Assembly: GCA_012839475.1 (NCBI GenBank)
Contig: DUNG01000016.1
Location: forward strand, 62,001 to 126,000
Reading direction: 5' to 3'
DNA length: 64,000 bases
DNA from: Petrimonas sp.
Lineage (GTDB): Bacteria; Bacteroidota; Bacteroidia; Bacteroidales; Dysgonomonadaceae
The notes under the pieces are model-generated. The model was not told the origin of the DNA, did not search any database, and saw only the letters and a list, made by a program, of their open reading frames with translations. Position numbers and translations under genes: made by a program. This document shows positions 1,300-59,927 of this stretch, one piece after another. The stretch's first letter is position 1, and each line of letters starts with the position of its first letter.

Positions 1300-1758
1300 A
1301 ATCTTGACTTGGTGTTAGTGTCTCAACCTTCTCTTGTTGTTTTGTTATTGCTATTTGCTTTCAAGGTGAAGGCCTTAGCTTGTTTTACGGGAACACATCC
1401 TGCGTAGTTCGCGTCAAAAAAGAAAAGCTGTTTGAACAATAGTGAGTTCTTTTCTTTTAGCGAACAAGCAGTTGATGGGTCGAAAATATTTGCGATGAGT
1501 GAGAGCAAATGCAAAGCTTGCTTTGACTTTGCCGAACGTAGCAAATATCTATCGCATGAAAACGAGCTTCAGCCAAAGCTGAAAGCAAATAATAAACATA
1601 AAGACAAAAGCTAAGTTATTACTGCAAAGTAATAAAAAATAATTGATACTGCCCCTATGTTTCACCTTTCTCACATCCGCCAAAAGGGTGCAGCCAAATT
1701 TCGCAAATAGAGCAGCAATCATTATTTTTGCAAGACGATCCTTTACAAGAAATTAGCA

Positions 1759-2772
1759 ATGAACGGGAAGAAAATTCTTATCACGGGCGCCAGCGGCTTT
1801 ATCGGGAGCACGGCGGTGGACAAGGCCCTTGAACTGGGTCTCGACACGTGGGCCGGCATTCGGAAGAGCAGCAGCCGTGCCTACCTGCAAGACGAGCGGA
1901 TTCGCTTCATCGATTTGCCGTACCACGACAAAGAAAAGCTAAGGGAGCAGCTCCGCTCGTTCGTGGATCAACATGGCCGCTTCGACTATATCCTCCACAT
2001 CGCCGGGGCCACACAAGCGCTCTGTGAAGCCAATTTTTTCCGGGTAAACTACGAATATACCCGCCATTTGGTCGACGTACTGGTCGAGGAGAAGGTACAG
2101 CCAGACGCCTTTGTATTGATGAGCACGCTCGGTGTCCTGGGCGTTGGCGATGAGGTGGGGTACACCCCTTTCCAAGCAGACCACGCTCCCAATCCCAACA
2201 CGGCCTACGGGAGGAGCAAGCTACAAGCCGAAAACTACCTAAAGGGCCTCGACAACTTTCCCTACCTGATCCTTCGCCCCACCGGCGTGTACGGCCCGCG
2301 CGACAGGGACTACCTTATCCTGATGAAAGCGGTTAAAAGCGGGTTAAACGTGGGAGCCGGGTTCAAGGAGCAGCGGCTGTCGTTCATCTTCAGCGAAGAC
2401 CTTGTAGATATCATCTTCACGCTTTTGAATAAGGGAATTACCCAAAAGGAGTTCCTGGTATCGGACGGCGATAGCTATACCGATAGTGAATTCAACGCGA
2501 TCGTGCAAGAGGCGCTGCAACGAAAACGGGTGCTGCGGGTAAAGGTCCCCTTGTGGATCGTAAAGCCCGCCGCGTTCCTCAGCGAGAAGTGGGCCTCCCT
2601 GTTCGGGAGGACCACCACCTTTAACAGCGACAAGTACAACATCATGAAGCAGCGCAATTGGGCGTGCGATATCACCCCCCTTCGTGATGCCATCGACTTC
2701 ACGCCCGCGCACAGGCTAAGGGAGGGTGTTGCCAAGACTGTCGCGTGGTACAAGGAGCATGGGTGGCTTTAA
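1759..2772 (+). CDS. NAD-dependent epimerase/dehydratase (SDR family)
   Basis: N-terminal ITGASGFIGS Rossmann motif and YGRSKLQAE catalytic YxxxK motif. Confidence 0.9.
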   Translation: MNGKKILITGASGFIGSTAVDKALELGLDTWAGIRKSSSRAYLQDERIRFIDLPYHDKEKLREQLRSFVDQHGRFDYILHIAGATQALCEANFFRVNYEYTRHLVDVLVEEKVQPDAFVLMSTLGVLGVGDEVGYTPFQADHAPNPNTAYGRSKLQAENYLKGLDNFPYLILRPTGVYGPRDRDYLILMKAVKSGLNVGAGFKEQRLSFIFSEDLVDIIFTLLNKGITQKEFLVSDGDSYTDSEFNAIVQEALQRKRVLRVKVPLWIVKPAAFLSEKWASLFGRTTTFNSDKYNIMKQRNWACDITPLRDAIDFTPAHRLREGVAKTVAWYKEHGWL

Positions 2773-2796
2773 GCACGATGTTTTTACCGTGCGCAC

Positions 2797-2827
2797 TTGG
2801 ATAAAGCTGTTTTTTCATGTACTTTTG
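2797..2827 (+). promoter_or_regulatory. Bacteroidota-type sigma-ABfr promoter upstream of dapB
   Basis: TTG at 2797-2799, 20-nt spacer, TACTTTTG (TAnnTTTG) at 2820-2827, 30 nt upstream of the dapB ATG. Confidence 0.6.
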
Positions 2828-2857
2828 CCAAGATGAAACCGACATGACAATAAGCGT

Positions 2858-3583
2858 ATGAAAATAGCAATAATCGGTTACGGCAAGATGGGGCGAGAGA
2901 TTGAAAAGGTGGCCCGCGAAAGGGGTCACGAGATTGGCGCCACCATCGATCTGAATGAAGAGGAGAAGTTCGCCTCACCCGAGTTTAAGGGGGCCGACGT
3001 GGCGATCGAGTTCACCGCGCCCACCAGCGCCGTGAGGAACTACCTGCTCGCCTTCGAGGCGGGTATACCGGTTGTGTCCGGTACTACCGGGTGGCTGGAT
3101 CAAGTTGACCGGGTGAAGGAGGCGTGCGAGCAAGCGGGTTCAGCCTTTTTCTATGCCTCCAACTTCAGCCTGGGCGTCAACCTCTTCTTCGAGCTCAACA
3201 AGGCGCTCGCCCAGATGATGAACCGGTTCGGCGAATACGATGTGCGGATGGAGGAGACCCATCACATTCACAAGCTGGATGCACCCAGCGGCACCGCGAT
3301 CACGCTCGCCAAGGGGATTTTGGAACATCTGGACCGAAAGAAGCGGTGGTCGCTAGAGGGTGATGAGCCCGATGACCCCGCTACATTGCACGTAGAGGCG
3401 TTTCGTGAAGGCGAGGTGCCCGGCATCCACAGCGTGATCTACGAATCGGAGATCGACTCTATCTGCATCACGCACGAAGCGAAAAGTCGAAAGGGGTTCG
3501 CCTTGGGTGCAGTGCTAGCGGCGGAATTTACAAAGGGGAAGAGGGGATTCCTCACCATGAGTGACCTGCTAAACTTAAAGTGA
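2858..3583 (+). CDS. dapB: 4-hydroxy-tetrahydrodipicolinate reductase
   Basis: IAIIGYGKMGREIE N-terminus, EFTAPTSA, ETHHIHKLDAPSGTA signature. Confidence 0.95.
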   Translation: MKIAIIGYGKMGREIEKVARERGHEIGATIDLNEEEKFASPEFKGADVAIEFTAPTSAVRNYLLAFEAGIPVVSGTTGWLDQVDRVKEACEQAGSAFFYASNFSLGVNLFFELNKALAQMMNRFGEYDVRMEETHHIHKLDAPSGTAITLAKGILEHLDRKKRWSLEGDEPDDPATLHVEAFREGEVPGIHSVIYESEIDSICITHEAKSRKGFALGAVLAAEFTKGKRGFLTMSDLLNLK

Positions 3584-3613
3584 AAAAATCAAGAAACAAA
3601 ATAACGACAACCT

Positions 3614-5134
3614 ATGAGCAAAAAACCGTCTACCCATCAGCAAGCCCGGCAGGGTAAAACCGCTCGTCCAACCCTACGCGAGCGATTTCAGGGTGCGAGT
3701 CGCCGCCAGTGGATCTGGTGCACCACCTGGTTGGTGCTTACCCTCCTGTTTGCAGTGTGGGCACGCTCGCTATGGGTATTAATACTCATCCCGTTCATAC
3801 TGGACATCTACATCACCAAGTTCTTGCCCTGGGGCTTCTGGAAACATTCAAAAAGCAACGCGGTCCGGAAAACCATGGAGTGGGTCGATGCTATCATATT
3901 CGCGCTGATCGCGGTCTACTTCATCAACACCTTTTTTTTCCAGAACTACCAGATTCCCACCTCCTCGTTAGAGAAGTCGCTGTTGGTGGGCGACTTCCTG
4001 GCGGTCAGCAAGCTCAGCTACGGTCCCCGCTCACCCATCACCCCGCTCTCGTTCCCATTGGCACAACACACCATGCCGGTGGTGGGGGGCAAGTCGTATT
4101 TCGAAAAACCGCAATGGAAGTACCGGCGACTAAAAGGGTTCGGAGAGGTAAAACGCAACGACATCGTGGTCTTCAACTTCCCCACGGGCGACACGGTGGC
4201 GCTAAACCGACAGGCCGAGGACTTCTACTCCCTGGCCAAGCAACATCCCGAGGGAAGCGCGGGGATACGTGCCGACAAGCGCTCGTACGGGGAGGTGGTG
4301 TACCGCCCGGTAGACCGACGGGAAAACTACGTGAAGCGCTGCATTGGGCTTCCGGGAGAGACCCTGGAGATGCGGAACGACACGGTGTACATCGATGGAC
4401 AGCACCTGCCCAACCCTCGCCTGGCCCAACATAACTACATGATCCATACCGACGGAACCCAGCTCTCAACGGAGCTATTCACGGAACTGGGTATCAACAA
4501 GGCCGACTACACGCTGGAAAGTTACGGCCAATCGATATCCCGCTCACAAGACCTCACCGGGGTGGATAGCCTAAGCATGGCACTTTTCGGGTTGTTTGCC
4601 CGCGATGGCAATAACGGCAGGCTATATTTCAGTATCCCCATGACGCAAGAGATGGTAGAGAAAGTAAAGGCCAAACCGTTTGTCTGGAACGTGATCAAAG
4701 AGAAGGAGCAACCCAGCACAGGCTACTACTACCCGCTTGATCATAACGGTGGGTGGACCCGGGACACCTACGGCCCGATATGGATACCCAAGAAAGGGGC
4801 TACCCTCACCTTCGATGGAGACGTCGACTTCAAGGTGGCGGCCTACGAGCGCTGTATCAAGAACTACGAGGGGAACGACTTCGCCTACCGCGATGGGGTG
4901 GTCTACATCAACGGTGAGGCGGCCGATTCCTATACTTTCAAGTTCGACTACTACTTCATGATGGGCGATAACCGCCACAACTCGGCCGACTCCCGCGTGT
5001 GGGGATTCGTGCCCGAAGACCATATCGTAGGGCAACCCAGGCTTATCTGGTTATCGCTGGAGAAAGACCGGGGTTGGTTTAAAGGGAGGATACGATGGAA
5101 GCGGCTGTTCCGAAACGCGAACATCCCCGCGTGA
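3614..5134 (+). CDS. lepB: Signal peptidase I (large Bacteroidota type)
   Basis: QNYQIPTSSLEKSLLVGDFL serine motif, YVKRCIGLPGE lysine motif, MMGDNRHNSADSR motif. Confidence 0.95.
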   Translation: MSKKPSTHQQARQGKTARPTLRERFQGASRRQWIWCTTWLVLTLLFAVWARSLWVLILIPFILDIYITKFLPWGFWKHSKSNAVRKTMEWVDAIIFALIAVYFINTFFFQNYQIPTSSLEKSLLVGDFLAVSKLSYGPRSPITPLSFPLAQHTMPVVGGKSYFEKPQWKYRRLKGFGEVKRNDIVVFNFPTGDTVALNRQAEDFYSLAKQHPEGSAGIRADKRSYGEVVYRPVDRRENYVKRCIGLPGETLEMRNDTVYIDGQHLPNPRLAQHNYMIHTDGTQLSTELFTELGINKADYTLESYGQSISRSQDLTGVDSLSMALFGLFARDGNNGRLYFSIPMTQEMVEKVKAKPFVWNVIKEKEQPSTGYYYPLDHNGGWTRDTYGPIWIPKKGATLTFDGDVDFKVAAYERCIKNYEGNDFAYRDGVVYINGEAADSYTFKFDYYFMMGDNRHNSADSRVWGFVPEDHIVGQPRLIWLSLEKDRGWFKGRIRWKRLFRNANIPA

Positions 5135-20734: not shown

Positions 20735-20856
20735 TTCGTCGCGGTATAGTTTTCCGGAGCAACACTTTGGCTCGTCGCGACATAGTTTTCCGGAGCAACA
20801 CTTTGGCTCGTCGCGACATAGTTTTCCGGAGCAACACTTTGACTCATCGTGGCATA
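20735..20856 (+). repeat. 36-nt tandem repeat, about 3.4 copies
   Basis: TTCGTCGCGGTATAGTTTTCCGGAGCAACACTTTGG repeated contiguously three times with few changes plus a partial fourth unit. Confidence 0.9.
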
Positions 20857-20966
20857 ACCCAAGCAAGCTTGGCTCTGCATTTGGCTTATTACAAAGAGTG
20901 AACCCCATAGATTTGCTTGAAAAGCAAGGGCGGCAAAATCACACAGGTGGTCTTGCCGCCTTTTTC
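20853..20966 (+). repeat. Copy 1 of ~110-nt element with terminal hairpin
   Basis: CATAACCCAAGCAAGCTTGGCTCTGCATTTGGCTTATTACAAAGAGTGAACCCCATAGATTTGCTTGAAAAGCAAGGGCGGCAA..., then ...TTGCCGCCTTTTT; matches 23232-23338. Confidence 0.85.
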
Positions 20967-23127: not shown

Positions 23128-23230
23128 CTGTTGCCTATATATGTAATAGGTGTATTATAGGGGATAGTGCATCCCCTATTTTATTGAAGTAAAAATCACG
23201 ATTTTAAATGAATAGAAGATAAAAACTATA

Positions 23231-23345
23231 ACATAACCCAAGCAAGCTTGGCTCTGCATTTGGCTTATTACAAAGAGTGAACCCCATAGATTTGCTTGAA
23301 AAGCAAGGGCGGCAAGACCCACGTGTGGTCTTGCCGCCTCTATTT
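23231..23345 (+). repeat. Copy 2 of ~110-nt element with terminator-like hairpin
   Basis: About 83 nt essentially identical to the element at 20853, then GGCGGCAAGACC-CACGTGT-GGTCTTGCCGCC (12-bp stem) and a T-rich tract. Confidence 0.85.
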
Positions 23346-38870: not shown

Positions 38871-38989
38871 GATTATATTGGGTTTTACGTTTTTTTGATT
38901 ATTGAACGATAGATTTCCTGACTTATTGACTTGTTGTTTTCTTGACCTGTTAGTCTCTAACTTAACTTTCGCATGTAACCTTTTCAATT

Positions 38990-39395
38990 TATTGCCTTTT
39001 CTGTCGTCTCTCGGCAAAACTCAAGCAAGCTTGGTTCTGCTCTCGCTTCTAAGAAAATTCATCGCTTTCAGGCTCGACTGGCGCAAATTTCGTGACCCAT
39101 CTGCTGCTTGATAGCTAAAAGAAAAGAACTCTGCTTCGCAGCACTTTTGCTCGCAACAGCATAACATGAACAAGTTCATTTCTGCACGTATTGCTTAACG
39201 CAAAAGTTCAGCTTCGCTTCAAACAGCTTTTCTTTCTTAACGCCATCTTCGCGGGATGTGTCCCCACGAAATTTCACGCAGTAGATATTTGCTCGCCTCA
39301 GCATAGTTCAAGCAAGCTTGACTCTGCGTTCGGCCAATCGCAAATATTCACGAGGTCTTCGCCCTGAAAGCTCATACAGTAAATAACATACGACT
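38990..39395 (+). repeat. Dispersed intergenic palindromic repeat cluster (several units)
   Basis: Units CTCAAGCAAGCTTGGTTCTGC, CATGAACAAGTTCATTTCTGC, TTCAAGCAAGCTTGACTCTGC with a similar flank GCTTANCGCAAA; extended similarity to the reverse complement of 1323-1600. Confidence 0.75.
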
Positions 39396-39407
39396 TACCC
39401 CTGCAGG

Positions 39408-43893: not shown

Positions 43894-44313
43894 TTTAAGT
43901 CTCTCCTCTTTACTCAACTTACTCAACTTTGACATTTCGGCTTAAGGATCGTTTAGCGAATAATTGCTCCATTCGACATAGTCAGGGTAAATCTTGTCCT
44001 TGCTTTCGCTTATCGCAAACCTCACGACCTTCACATTCCATTAAAAACGAGTGGAACTCGCGTTGATCAGGAGTCTACTTTCGTGCGCTCACCTTTCACG
44101 TTCGCTTTAAGCATTCTCGCCTTCGCACGTTGGCCTTTGCGCACGAAACCGCCCATAACACCCAAGTTCCAACCCTTTAATCGTGCGAATGTATACATTT
44201 TCGGGGAATTAACGGTCGAATTCAGGAAAATTAAGTCGCCAGCGCCCCGCCAACGGCAGTTAATTCACGGGGAGCGGTTTCATTTGAACGGGAAAAATCT
44301 TATCTTCGCGTAT

Positions 44314-51774: not shown

Positions 51775-51866
51775 GCGATTGCTAATTGTTCATTCGCTGA
51801 CGCGCCTTTTCTGTCATCGCTCGGCAAAGCTTAAGCAAGCTCAGCTCTGCCCTCGCTCCTAAAAAA

Positions 51867-51971
51867 ATTGCTCATTGCTAATTGCTAACTACTCATTGCT
51901 AATTGCTAATTGCTAATTGCTCATTGCTAATTGTTCATTGCTAATTGTTCATTACTAATTGCTCATTGAAA
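51867..51971 (+). repeat. 7-nt tandem array (ATTGCTA/ATTGCTC), 15 units, abutting the downstream start codon
   Basis: Every unit is 7 nt, consensus ATTGCT(A/C), last degenerate unit ATTGAAA immediately followed by ATG at 51972. Confidence 0.92.
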
Positions 51972-58637: not shown

Positions 58638-59927
58638 ATGAAAGCATTAAGACACCCCCTCGTTTTCGCGATCATCGCGCTGACTTTGTTCGCCTGCGGT
58701 TCCCAACGTGACTACGCCTACGCGCAAGTTTACGATGAGTATGGGTACTACGATGATAGGTACTACGATGCCGGGTATTACGGAGACGGGTACTACAACC
58801 GCGGCGGTGGCATCAGCTTCAACGTGTTTTACAACGAGTTGAGGCCTTACGGAAGGTGGATTAACAGCCACTCGTACGGACGTGTCTGGATACCCAACGT
58901 GGGCAGGGATTTCCATCCCTACGCCACGAATGGTTACTGGGTGATGACCGACCACGGCAACATGTGGGTTTCCAACTACTCCTGGGGATGGGCACCGTTC
59001 CATTACGGGAGATGGTACTGGGACAACTATTATGGCTGGGCCTGGGTTCCCGGTTACGAGTGGGCACCTGCATGGGTAACGTGGAGAAGTGGCGGTGGCT
59101 ACTACGGCTGGGCGCCGTTAGGGCCAAGGGTGAGCATCCACGTTCACGTGAACTTACCCGGGCACTACTGGACTTTCCTGCCCACGCGCCACATGTACAA
59201 CCGCAGTATGTACAAGTACTACAGGCGCCACAGCACCACCATCTATAACAACACCACCATTATCAACAACACCTACGTGTATAACAATAACCGCTACTAT
59301 AGCGGTCCAACCCCCTCCGAGTACCAAAGAACCACCGGCAGGAACGCTATCGTTCACCGGGTAGAGAGCAGCAACGTCCGAACGAGCTCGGGAAGAACTA
59401 CCGTGGTAGACAACAACGCGGTAAGGGTGTACCGACCGGAAGCAACCGCCAGCCGAAGCAGTAGCGGCGGCAACCGCGGCGCGGTGAGCACCGCCCGAAC
59501 CAGTAGCAGCAACCGAAGCACAACCAGCGGCAATGTGAGCCGTGGTACCACTAGCAGCTCCTCGAATCGAAGCGCGGTAAACAACAGCCGAACCAGCTCC
59601 TCTTCTAACCGGAGCAGCGGCAACAGCACCGTAAGGTCCAGCTCTTCAAGCAGCCGAAGCTCTACCAGCGGCAGCGTGAATCGAAGCAGCTCCAGTAATA
59701 GCAACCGGAGCAGCGGCAACAGCACCGTAAGGTCCAGCTCTTCAAGCAACCGAAGCTCTACCAGTGGCAGCGTGAGTCGAAGCAGCTCCAGTAATAGCAA
59801 CCGGAGCAGCGGCAACAGCACCGTGAGGTCGAGCTCCTCTTCTAACCGAAGCAACAACAACGCGACGACCCGGTCGGGCTCCTCTGAACGGAGCAGCTCC
59901 GGCAGGAGCTCCGGGGGACGCAGATAA
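58638..59927 (+). CDS. DUF6600-like secreted protein with Ser/Arg/Asn-rich repetitive tail
   Basis: Lipoprotein-like signal FACGSQ; ELRPYGRWINSHSYGRVWIPNV...GWAWVPGYEWAPAWVTWRSGGGYYGWAPLGP; repetitive tail. Confidence 0.75.
   Translation: MKALRHPLVFAIIALTLFACGSQRDYAYAQVYDEYGYYDDRYYDAGYYGDGYYNRGGGISFNVFYNELRPYGRWINSHSYGRVWIPNVGRDFHPYATNGYWVMTDHGNMWVSNYSWGWAPFHYGRWYWDNYYGWAWVPGYEWAPAWVTWRSGGGYYGWAPLGPRVSIHVHVNLPGHYWTFLPTRHMYNRSMYKYYRRHSTTIYNNTTIINNTYVYNNNRYYSGPTPSEYQRTTGRNAIVHRVESSNVRTSSGRTTVVDNNAVRVYRPEATASRSSSGGNRGAVSTARTSSSNRSTTSGNVSRGTTSSSSNRSAVNNSRTSSSSNRSSGNSTVRSSSSSSRSSTSGSVNRSSSSNSNRSSGNSTVRSSSSSNRSSTSGSVSRSSSSNSNRSSGNSTVRSSSSSNRSNNNATTRSGSSERSSSGRSSGGRR
59607..59850 (+). repeat. 96-nt coding tandem repeat, about 2.5 copies
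   Basis: AACCGGAGCAGCGGCAACAGCACCGTAAGGTCCAGC... begins at 59607, 59703 and 59799. Confidence 0.92.

Follow-up and report, generated by a model that had tools for sequence, protein, structure and literature searches.

The window, by which we mean the whole 64,000-nt stretch of Petrimonas sp. DNA analysed here, contains at 38965-39393 a composite block in which three short hairpins are nested in a larger inverted-repeat element, called the shell in what follows. Further copies of the hairpin, a second copy of the shell and an array of heptamers lie elsewhere in the window. The features are listed below, with the scores given by R1, a covariance model of the inner hairpin.

38965-39393, plus strand: composite of a shell MITE (inverted-repeat arms, imperfect palindrome) with three nested hairpins
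38965-38984, plus strand: left terminal repeat of the shell, ACTTTCGCATGTAACCTTTT
38999-39058, plus strand: hairpin of type A in the shell's left arm, with arms TTTTCT/AGAAAA (core 39012-39042, R1 49.5 bits; nhmmer)
39060-39139, plus strand: left inner part of the shell, CTTTCAGG ... GCTAAAAGAAAAGAACT (a BLAST piece that occurs alone at many loci)
39143-39207, plus strand: hairpin of type C in the shell's loop, with arms ACTTTTGC/GCAAAAGT (core 39157-39187, R1 38.6 bits)
39208-39271, plus strand: right inner part of the shell, CTTTTCTTTCTTAACGC ... GGGATGTGTCCCCACGAAA (BLAST piece)
39285-39347, plus strand: hairpin of type E, arms ATATTTGC/GCAAATAT (core 39299-39329, R1 41.8 bits)
39348-39393, plus strand: right arm of the shell, GAGGTCTTCGCCCTGAAAGC ... 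CATACGACTT (BLAST piece)
1323-1600, minus strand: second shell copy, with the hairpin to the left of the inner part of the shell (from the sequence and permuted BLAST pieces)
1486-1547, minus strand: hairpin of type E', inner stem CAAAG/CTTTG (core 1503-1534, R1 36.7 bits)
20836-20896, plus strand: hairpin, arms CTTTG/CAAAG (core 20850-20880, R1 40.6 bits)
23231-23274, plus strand: hairpin copy with a diverged left arm (core 23229-23259, R1 28.4 bits)
43962-44019, plus strand: possible copy, degraded (nhmmer 1.4e-6; without an R1 match)
51810-51868, plus strand: hairpin of type A inside a 7-nt tandem array (core 51822-51852, R1 43.5 bits)
51866-51968, plus strand: degenerate ATTGCTM heptamer array adjoining the hairpin (from the sequence)

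The modular make-up of the block was apparent from a BLAST search of 38985-39400 against the genome, which returned 86 pieces at about 40 places with the same module borders recurring. Types A, C and E of the hairpin were found in either orientation, at several positions in the shell or outside it. When empty, the shell is about 210 bp long and has the features of a MITE, namely terminal inverted repeats, with termini like AACTTTCGCATGTAACTGTTT, and no coding capacity; the fold of the composite indicates that the shell is itself an imperfect palindrome. The sequence ACTTTCGCATGTAACTGTTT is found at shell ends, and 13, 21 and 30 termini were present in three genomes. Direct repeats of 9 bp (TAAATTAAC, GTAGATAAC and GTCAYTAAT) lie outside the termini at the best shell copies, and a relative has an empty site at one locus (see below), the automated test for target duplication being weakened by the A/T-rich flanks, because mixed-pair controls often reached 6-7 of 9 positions. 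Among three draft genomes, whose contigs break at these repeats, we found no pair of shell termini at a distance suitable for an autonomous insertion sequence. A preliminary description of this DNA had the blocks at 1323-1600 and 39010-39390 similar over more than 200 nt; in fact they are not collinear, and the pieces that they have in common, of 48, 51 and 77 nt, are arranged differently in each, because the hairpins occupy different places in a common shell.

R1 was scanned over the window and over the whole genome (3.39 Mb in 61 contigs). Seven matches were obtained in the window, all with E<1e-4, the next best having E=0.8, and the genome contained at least 76 matches at E<0.01 and at least 90 up to E=1, counts that are lower bounds, 150 of the 1092 candidates having been scored; the scores of copies from this genome are high by construction, because R1 was trained partly on them. 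The scan thus found the strong excess of copies that the preliminary description had led us to look for. Each of the six palindromes that it named was present where it had placed them, and the sequences bear out a shared layout, of GCA(W)A, palindrome and TCTGC. Of the two copies that it called less perfect, that near 43975 is indeed weak and partial, but that near 51830 is a good copy. The repeat family is therefore real, but larger and organized otherwise than had been supposed. Two of the window copies belong to a 109-bp duplication found by BLAST (20853-20961 and 23232-23339, 95% identical and 2.4 kb apart), the duplicated unit comprising the hairpin and a downstream GC-rich, terminator-like stem-loop. 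Immediately upstream of the hairpin at 20850 is a 72-nt tandem repeat of the GGAGCAACACTTTGGCTCGTCGCGACATAGTTTTCC type (20736-20856). The window also has a 96-bp direct repeat, 93% identical, at 59586-59852, which lies within a long ORF (58638-59927) and is probably a repeated protein segment.

The repeated unit is an imperfect hairpin of about 65 nt, with an outer stem, a middle stem and an inner stem in which one mismatch is conserved and a T is usually bulged out. Its parts follow in the order outer arm, linker, GCA-W-A-R-Y-T, inner arm, CAAG-like centre, inner arm, R-Y-TCTGC, linker and outer arm. The outer stem, usually of 7 bp, is lineage-specific in sequence yet self-complementary; the linkers mark subfamilies that are common to different bacterial families, and the middle stem, which is short, was seen by eye in these linkers and lies outside the pairing counts given here.

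Pairing in the inner stem was studied with patterns in which the arms were free to vary. In 1.4 Mb of gathered loci, where the commonest arm is over-represented because a fixed-arm pattern was used in part of the gathering, the free-arm pattern occurred 154 times and the reversed pattern once. The variants are therefore what counts; the search, in which the centre too was free, yielded 41 distinct 27-mers, one of them a chance match in the shell, and 37 of the 40 distinct cores found with free arms had four Watson-Crick arm pairs. The set used to measure covariation consisted of 52 distinct cores and 10 pairs (520 cells), of which 12 cores came from a survey of the order whose limit of three mismatches biases against double changes. 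In this set 97.1% of cells were paired, compared with 86.6% after shuffling; when the partners were displaced by one to three columns, only 24-36% of cells paired. Changes on both sides of a pair were seen in 65 cells, compared with 16.9 in shuffles, and in seven of the 10 pairs, so that the covariation proposed in the preliminary description is beyond chance. Columns 13 and 16 also covary (C-G in 47 cores, T-A in four; paired in 51 of 52), and the true loop is therefore of two bases. It follows that CAAG is not the invariant centre that it had been taken for, since its C and G pair and covary and seven other centres (TAAA, CGAG, CATG, CATA, CACG, CTTG and TGAA) occur genome-wide.

Two departures from pairing also recur. 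The bases at columns 4 and 24 do not pair in 47 of the 52 cores, and 32 of 41 cores have a T at column 8, a position without a partner in the structure as counted; the mismatch and the usual bulged T fall on one and the same side across copies, which is easier to reconcile with a single strand that folds than with a symmetric site in duplex DNA. Among 107 copies from across the order, 58 had outer arms with 6 nt or more of complementarity at fixed distances, against 3.7% of mixed-flank pairings, and the commonest complementarity was exactly 7 nt; a freer test of 7-nt complementarity gave 53% against 8%. Where the preliminary description had left a choice between a hairpin and a two-fold protein-binding site, the hairpin stands, as both inner and outer stems covary, and the symmetric protein site is made less likely by the mismatch and bulge on one side. 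That the family is maintained in hairpin form is strongly supported by these comparisons of sequence. One explanation for the variety of arms, that they are copied from each target, was rejected because recent copies at separate loci, and the units of tandem arrays, have identical arms.

Among the matches listed from a species-level genome collection, upwards of 120 contig stretches contained the exact 27-nt core, nearly all of them from Bacteroidales, the carriers listed being Proteiniphilum, Prevotella, Bacteroides, Parabacteroides, Paludibacteraceae, Rikenellaceae and Muribaculaceae, and also Prolixibacteraceae. A sample of 392 genomes of the order included 26, representing 22 genera, that had the core with up to three mismatches, and one that matched the reversed control. 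The mosaic of the composite block was itself found again in the MAG Bacteroidales bacterium AS08sgBPME_260 (loci L127 and L212). Three core stretches come from MAGs labelled Delongbacteria and Desulfobacteraceae, but all belong to the MAG series GH, which also contains a positive Prolixibacteraceae MAG, and mis-binning is therefore likely. No core was found in plasmids or phages, and viral contigs gave one match.

Copies are often close together: same-strand neighbours within 200 nt are mostly spaced at 79 nt, and the arrays have a period of 72-81 nt. The flanks of order-wide copies also show an excess of 7-nt periodicity, in 9.6% of right and 5.3% of left flanks against 1% of controls. Degenerate 7-nt arrays that host hairpins consist of ATTGCTM here and of CCAAYAG in a congener (L218), and arrays of a similar kind adjoin copies in other genera. 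Such arrays, with their constant period, are suggestive of replication errors, and we considered whether the arms might be kept complementary by a mutational process, template switching in quasi-palindromes, with spread by replication slippage and recombination only. This would explain the double-sided changes without selection and would need no enzyme, none having been found, but the mismatch at columns 4 and 24 and the usual bulge at column 8 have been kept, where correction would be expected to remove them, the linkers are conserved across bacterial families, and new unlinked sites require a transfer step, so that we regard template switching as an improbable account of the family.

The sequences beyond the outer arms were complementary in eight of 58 copies, against 3% expected, and in another genus a hairpin is centred in a palindrome of another kind, CGTTCGGATTT...TGTAATCCGAACG. 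A preference for palindromic targets may be inferred from these few clear cases.

By a simple ORF rule, nearly all copies are intergenic: of the roughly 85 whose position was determined, three overlap an ORF. When copies were counted relative to gene ends, a check suggested by the preliminary description, six of 60 independent clusters lay between convergent genes, and those in codirectional gaps were mostly antisense, with 23 antisense and 10 sense clusters in this genome (p=0.035) and 31 and 21 elsewhere (combined p=0.017), which is a weak bias among clusters that are perhaps not fully independent. These positions bear on the possibility that the hairpins act as RNA, in the form of terminators, attenuators or mRNA-stabilizing 3' structures, as has been proposed for some REPs. 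The intergenic position would suit such a role, one type C copy folds stably (z=-3.2), and a terminator-like stem-loop follows the hairpin in 20853-20961; however, few clusters are between convergent genes, and the codirectional copies lean to the antisense strand. Moreover, G-T pairs occupy nine of the 520 cells, against the 65 with double-sided changes, a rarity that fits DNA better than RNA, and Rfam gave nothing at gathering score in the window, the best lax match (E=4.2) being far under its cut-off. An RNA role is very unlikely. A promoter-box reading was also discarded, the right arm resembling the Bacteroidetes TAnnTTTG box in only a few loci.

We compared this genome (G000) with two congeners, G031 and G020, that are about 90% identical. 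At C16:15651, where the filled site is flanked by GTCATTAAT/GTCACTAAT, the shell and its hairpins are absent from G031, which has one 9-bp site left, and only a remnant is present in G020. At C16:59001, G020 has no shell and G031 has the shell with one extra hairpin. The same shell is found in G000 and G031 at C16:48260, with a type A hairpin in its arm in G000 only and a type C hairpin in its loop in G031 only, and these reciprocal hairpins mean that both lineages have changed. Near 51.8 kb in the window, G020 has the heptamer array only, G000 has one hairpin and G031 has two, and a block that contains four type C-like units with 79-nt spacing at C16:45226 is missing from G031. The site orthologous to 38965-39393 spans about 68 nt in a congener against 513 here, but the alignment is poor and there is no clean empty site in G031. 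Filled and empty pairs show a target duplication for the hairpin of at most 1-4 A/T bases, which is ambiguous, and left flanks of GAACT, AAATT and ACTGT, with no fixed target tetranucleotide by the left end of the kind used by IS200/IS605-like elements. In most cases a hairpin difference may be either a gain or a loss. Indels c, d, e and g of the comparison are unrelated to hairpins, as is a 79-nt tract at C16:56292 (L226, L227) that is present in the two congeners and cleanly absent here.

Because shells and hairpins are present or absent separately at orthologous sites, they are to be seen as mobile non-autonomous palindromic elements and not as terminators. The same differences between close relatives tell against fixed functional sites, such as those for nucleoid organization, replication or the binding of a regulator, acting as two-fold or cruciform DNA in which selection for protein binding would account for the complementary changes. 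A core that is near-identical across an order, a mostly intergenic position with three of about 85 copies overlapping an ORF, and strictly self-complementary arms would all be expected of such sites; nesting, tandem arrays and a patchy presence in 26 of 392 genomes would not, nor would a conserved mismatch and usual bulge in a symmetric duplex site, and we think fixed sites as improbable as template switching.

Given its copy number, its spread and covariation, its nesting and tandem arrays, and its polymorphism between congeners, the family probably consists of short, mobile, non-autonomous DNA elements in which an imperfect hairpin of about 65 nt is what has been conserved, with an enzyme acting in trans that recognizes the fold and with nesting in a MITE. 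Recognition of the single strand and the trans-acting enzyme belong to the inferred part of this account, as does the preference for palindromic targets. On the lagging strand or in a cruciform, the single strand would fold into three stacked stems with the fixed mismatch and, usually, the bulged T; an enzyme encoded elsewhere would read this fold, rather than the sequence of the arms, and would copy or move the unit to A/T-rich sites, often within other palindromes, duplicating little or nothing of the target. Tandem amplification of units would occur as well, mostly with a period of 79 nt. At 38965-39393, the inverted-repeat MITE would have arrived first, followed by hairpins of three subfamilies into its arms and loop. 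A stronger version of the same proposal, in which an order-wide family of hairpins, recognized by fold and with freely varying arms, is moved by an enzyme that is specific for single strands and favours the loops of other palindromes as targets, so that hairpins build up within hairpins, is one that we offer tentatively and as less than an even prospect.

As to the mobilizing enzyme, the connection to REP-associated tyrosine transposases (TnpA-REP) raised in the preliminary description was a fair lead, but no association with Y1 genes was found. The only Y1 gene found in the genome is a decayed IS200-like gene with an internal TGA (L060:4771-5043, which is G000:C9:9770-10042); Y1_Tnp is present in 19 of the 26 core-bearing genomes and in about 69% of the others in the 392-genome sample; and the core was beside none of the Y1 genes at the 30 best-scoring loci and 20 further ones, most of the 20 being without a RAYT motif. 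Y1/TnpA-REP was therefore rejected as the agent, as was an adjoining gene, because ORF clustering of 120 core loci gave no recurrent neighbour, all that came out being host genes of various kinds, outer-membrane receptors among them. Two core loci, L132 and L216, do hold a RAYT-like gene of the subclass 2.6 type (NHLH ... YIHMNP or YIHQNP) at 0.6-3 kb, and neither of these genes is directly flanked by the core. Around the gene of L132 (NHLH ... YIHMNP) there are many palindromes of the CGTTCGGATTTGTAATCCGAACG type (L132:150-400 and 2540-3990), which are likely to be the REP family of this RAYT, and one of them has our hairpin at its centre. The arrangement agrees with the atypical structures on record next to RAYT genes of Bacteroidetes subclass 2.6 (PMC6006769), and it suggests that the hairpin uses CGTTCGGATTTGTAATCCGAACG-type palindromes as targets and is not the RAYT's own repeat.

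These loci also bear on a narrower form of the preferred explanation, that the hairpins are the REPs of a known Bacteroidetes RAYT (TnpA-REP) subclass, 2.6 (PMC6006769). Their size, intergenic position, arrays and imperfect hairpin are REP-like, RAYT-like genes lie within 3 kb of the core in L132 and L216, and PMC6006769 records atypical structures adjoining the genes of this subclass. Against this, the L132 gene is flanked by palindromes of another kind, one of which carries our hairpin as an insert, this genome is without an intact Y1 gene, and no core was near the 50 Y1 loci, where, as most have no RAYT motif, subclass 2.6 is covered by L132 and L216 only. We consider the subclass 2.6 assignment unlikely, although less so than the fixed-site, template-switching and RNA readings.

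No published description of the hairpin family was found in the open-access papers searched or in Rfam, an account in a subscription journal being possible. Palindromic elements of Rickettsia and Wolbachia also have variable arms, and their mobilizing agent is not known. Ours are alike in this variability, but are intergenic, mutually nested and found in Bacteroidales. REP, BIME and REPIN sequences, which are associated with TnpA-REP (RAYT), are likewise short, intergenic, imperfect hairpins in many copies, single or arrayed and some of them bulged (PMC3116915, PMC6006769), and the present elements resemble them in these respects and in probably being moved in trans. They differ in having no GTAG (or GT[AG]G) foot, the feet varying between copies, in their length of about 65 nt, three stems and variable self-complementary outer stem, in the absence of a linked RAYT gene and in their order-wide core. 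Since the two hallmarks that we looked for, the GTAG foot and the linked RAYT, were absent, we have not filed the hairpins as REP/RAYT, although by its fold the hairpin may work like that of a REP or of an IS200-type element, recognized through its structure.

CGTC-tagged palindromic repeats, described also from Bacteroidetes in a paper that mentions the Rickettsia palindromic elements (RPE), have no dedicated transposase and carry CGTC unpaired at one end (PMC3733652). Our family is similarly palindromic and without a dedicated transposase, but CGTC occurs only inside subfamily A, is absent from C, E and most order-wide copies, and the stems differ. The shell is like MITEs, including BrickBuilt of Porphyromonas gingivalis, which has a 23-nt tandem repeat and GAGACCTTTGCA termini (PMC4596501), in its inverted termini, target duplications, lack of genes and intergenic position. 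It is distinguished from BrickBuilt by its termini (AACTTTCGCATG as against GAGACCTTTGCA) and by the period of the hairpin arrays (72-81 nt as against 23), and the nested hairpins, unlike MITEs, show no clear target duplication. Heptamer direct repeats are known from Beggiatoaceae, Cyanobacteria and some Bacteroidetes; they form 7-nt tandem arrays like those beside our hairpins, but with another heptamer, TAACTGA, and with no hairpin association reported in the available part of that account (PMC4679880). The Prevotella repeat PINSR (PMC4755523) was ruled out, being without terminal inverted repeats.

The small palindromic repeats of Proteobacteria have been studied in depth, and for the Bacteroidales, which are dominant in guts and rumens, we found little described. 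In practical terms, assemblies seem to be broken by the repeats, with several contigs ending inside copies. Their intergenic copies could affect the expression of neighbouring genes, and a family with an exact core in many genera, covarying stems, nesting and polymorphism between congeners offers a test case for how hairpins spread, and a probe for the enzyme that would move them.
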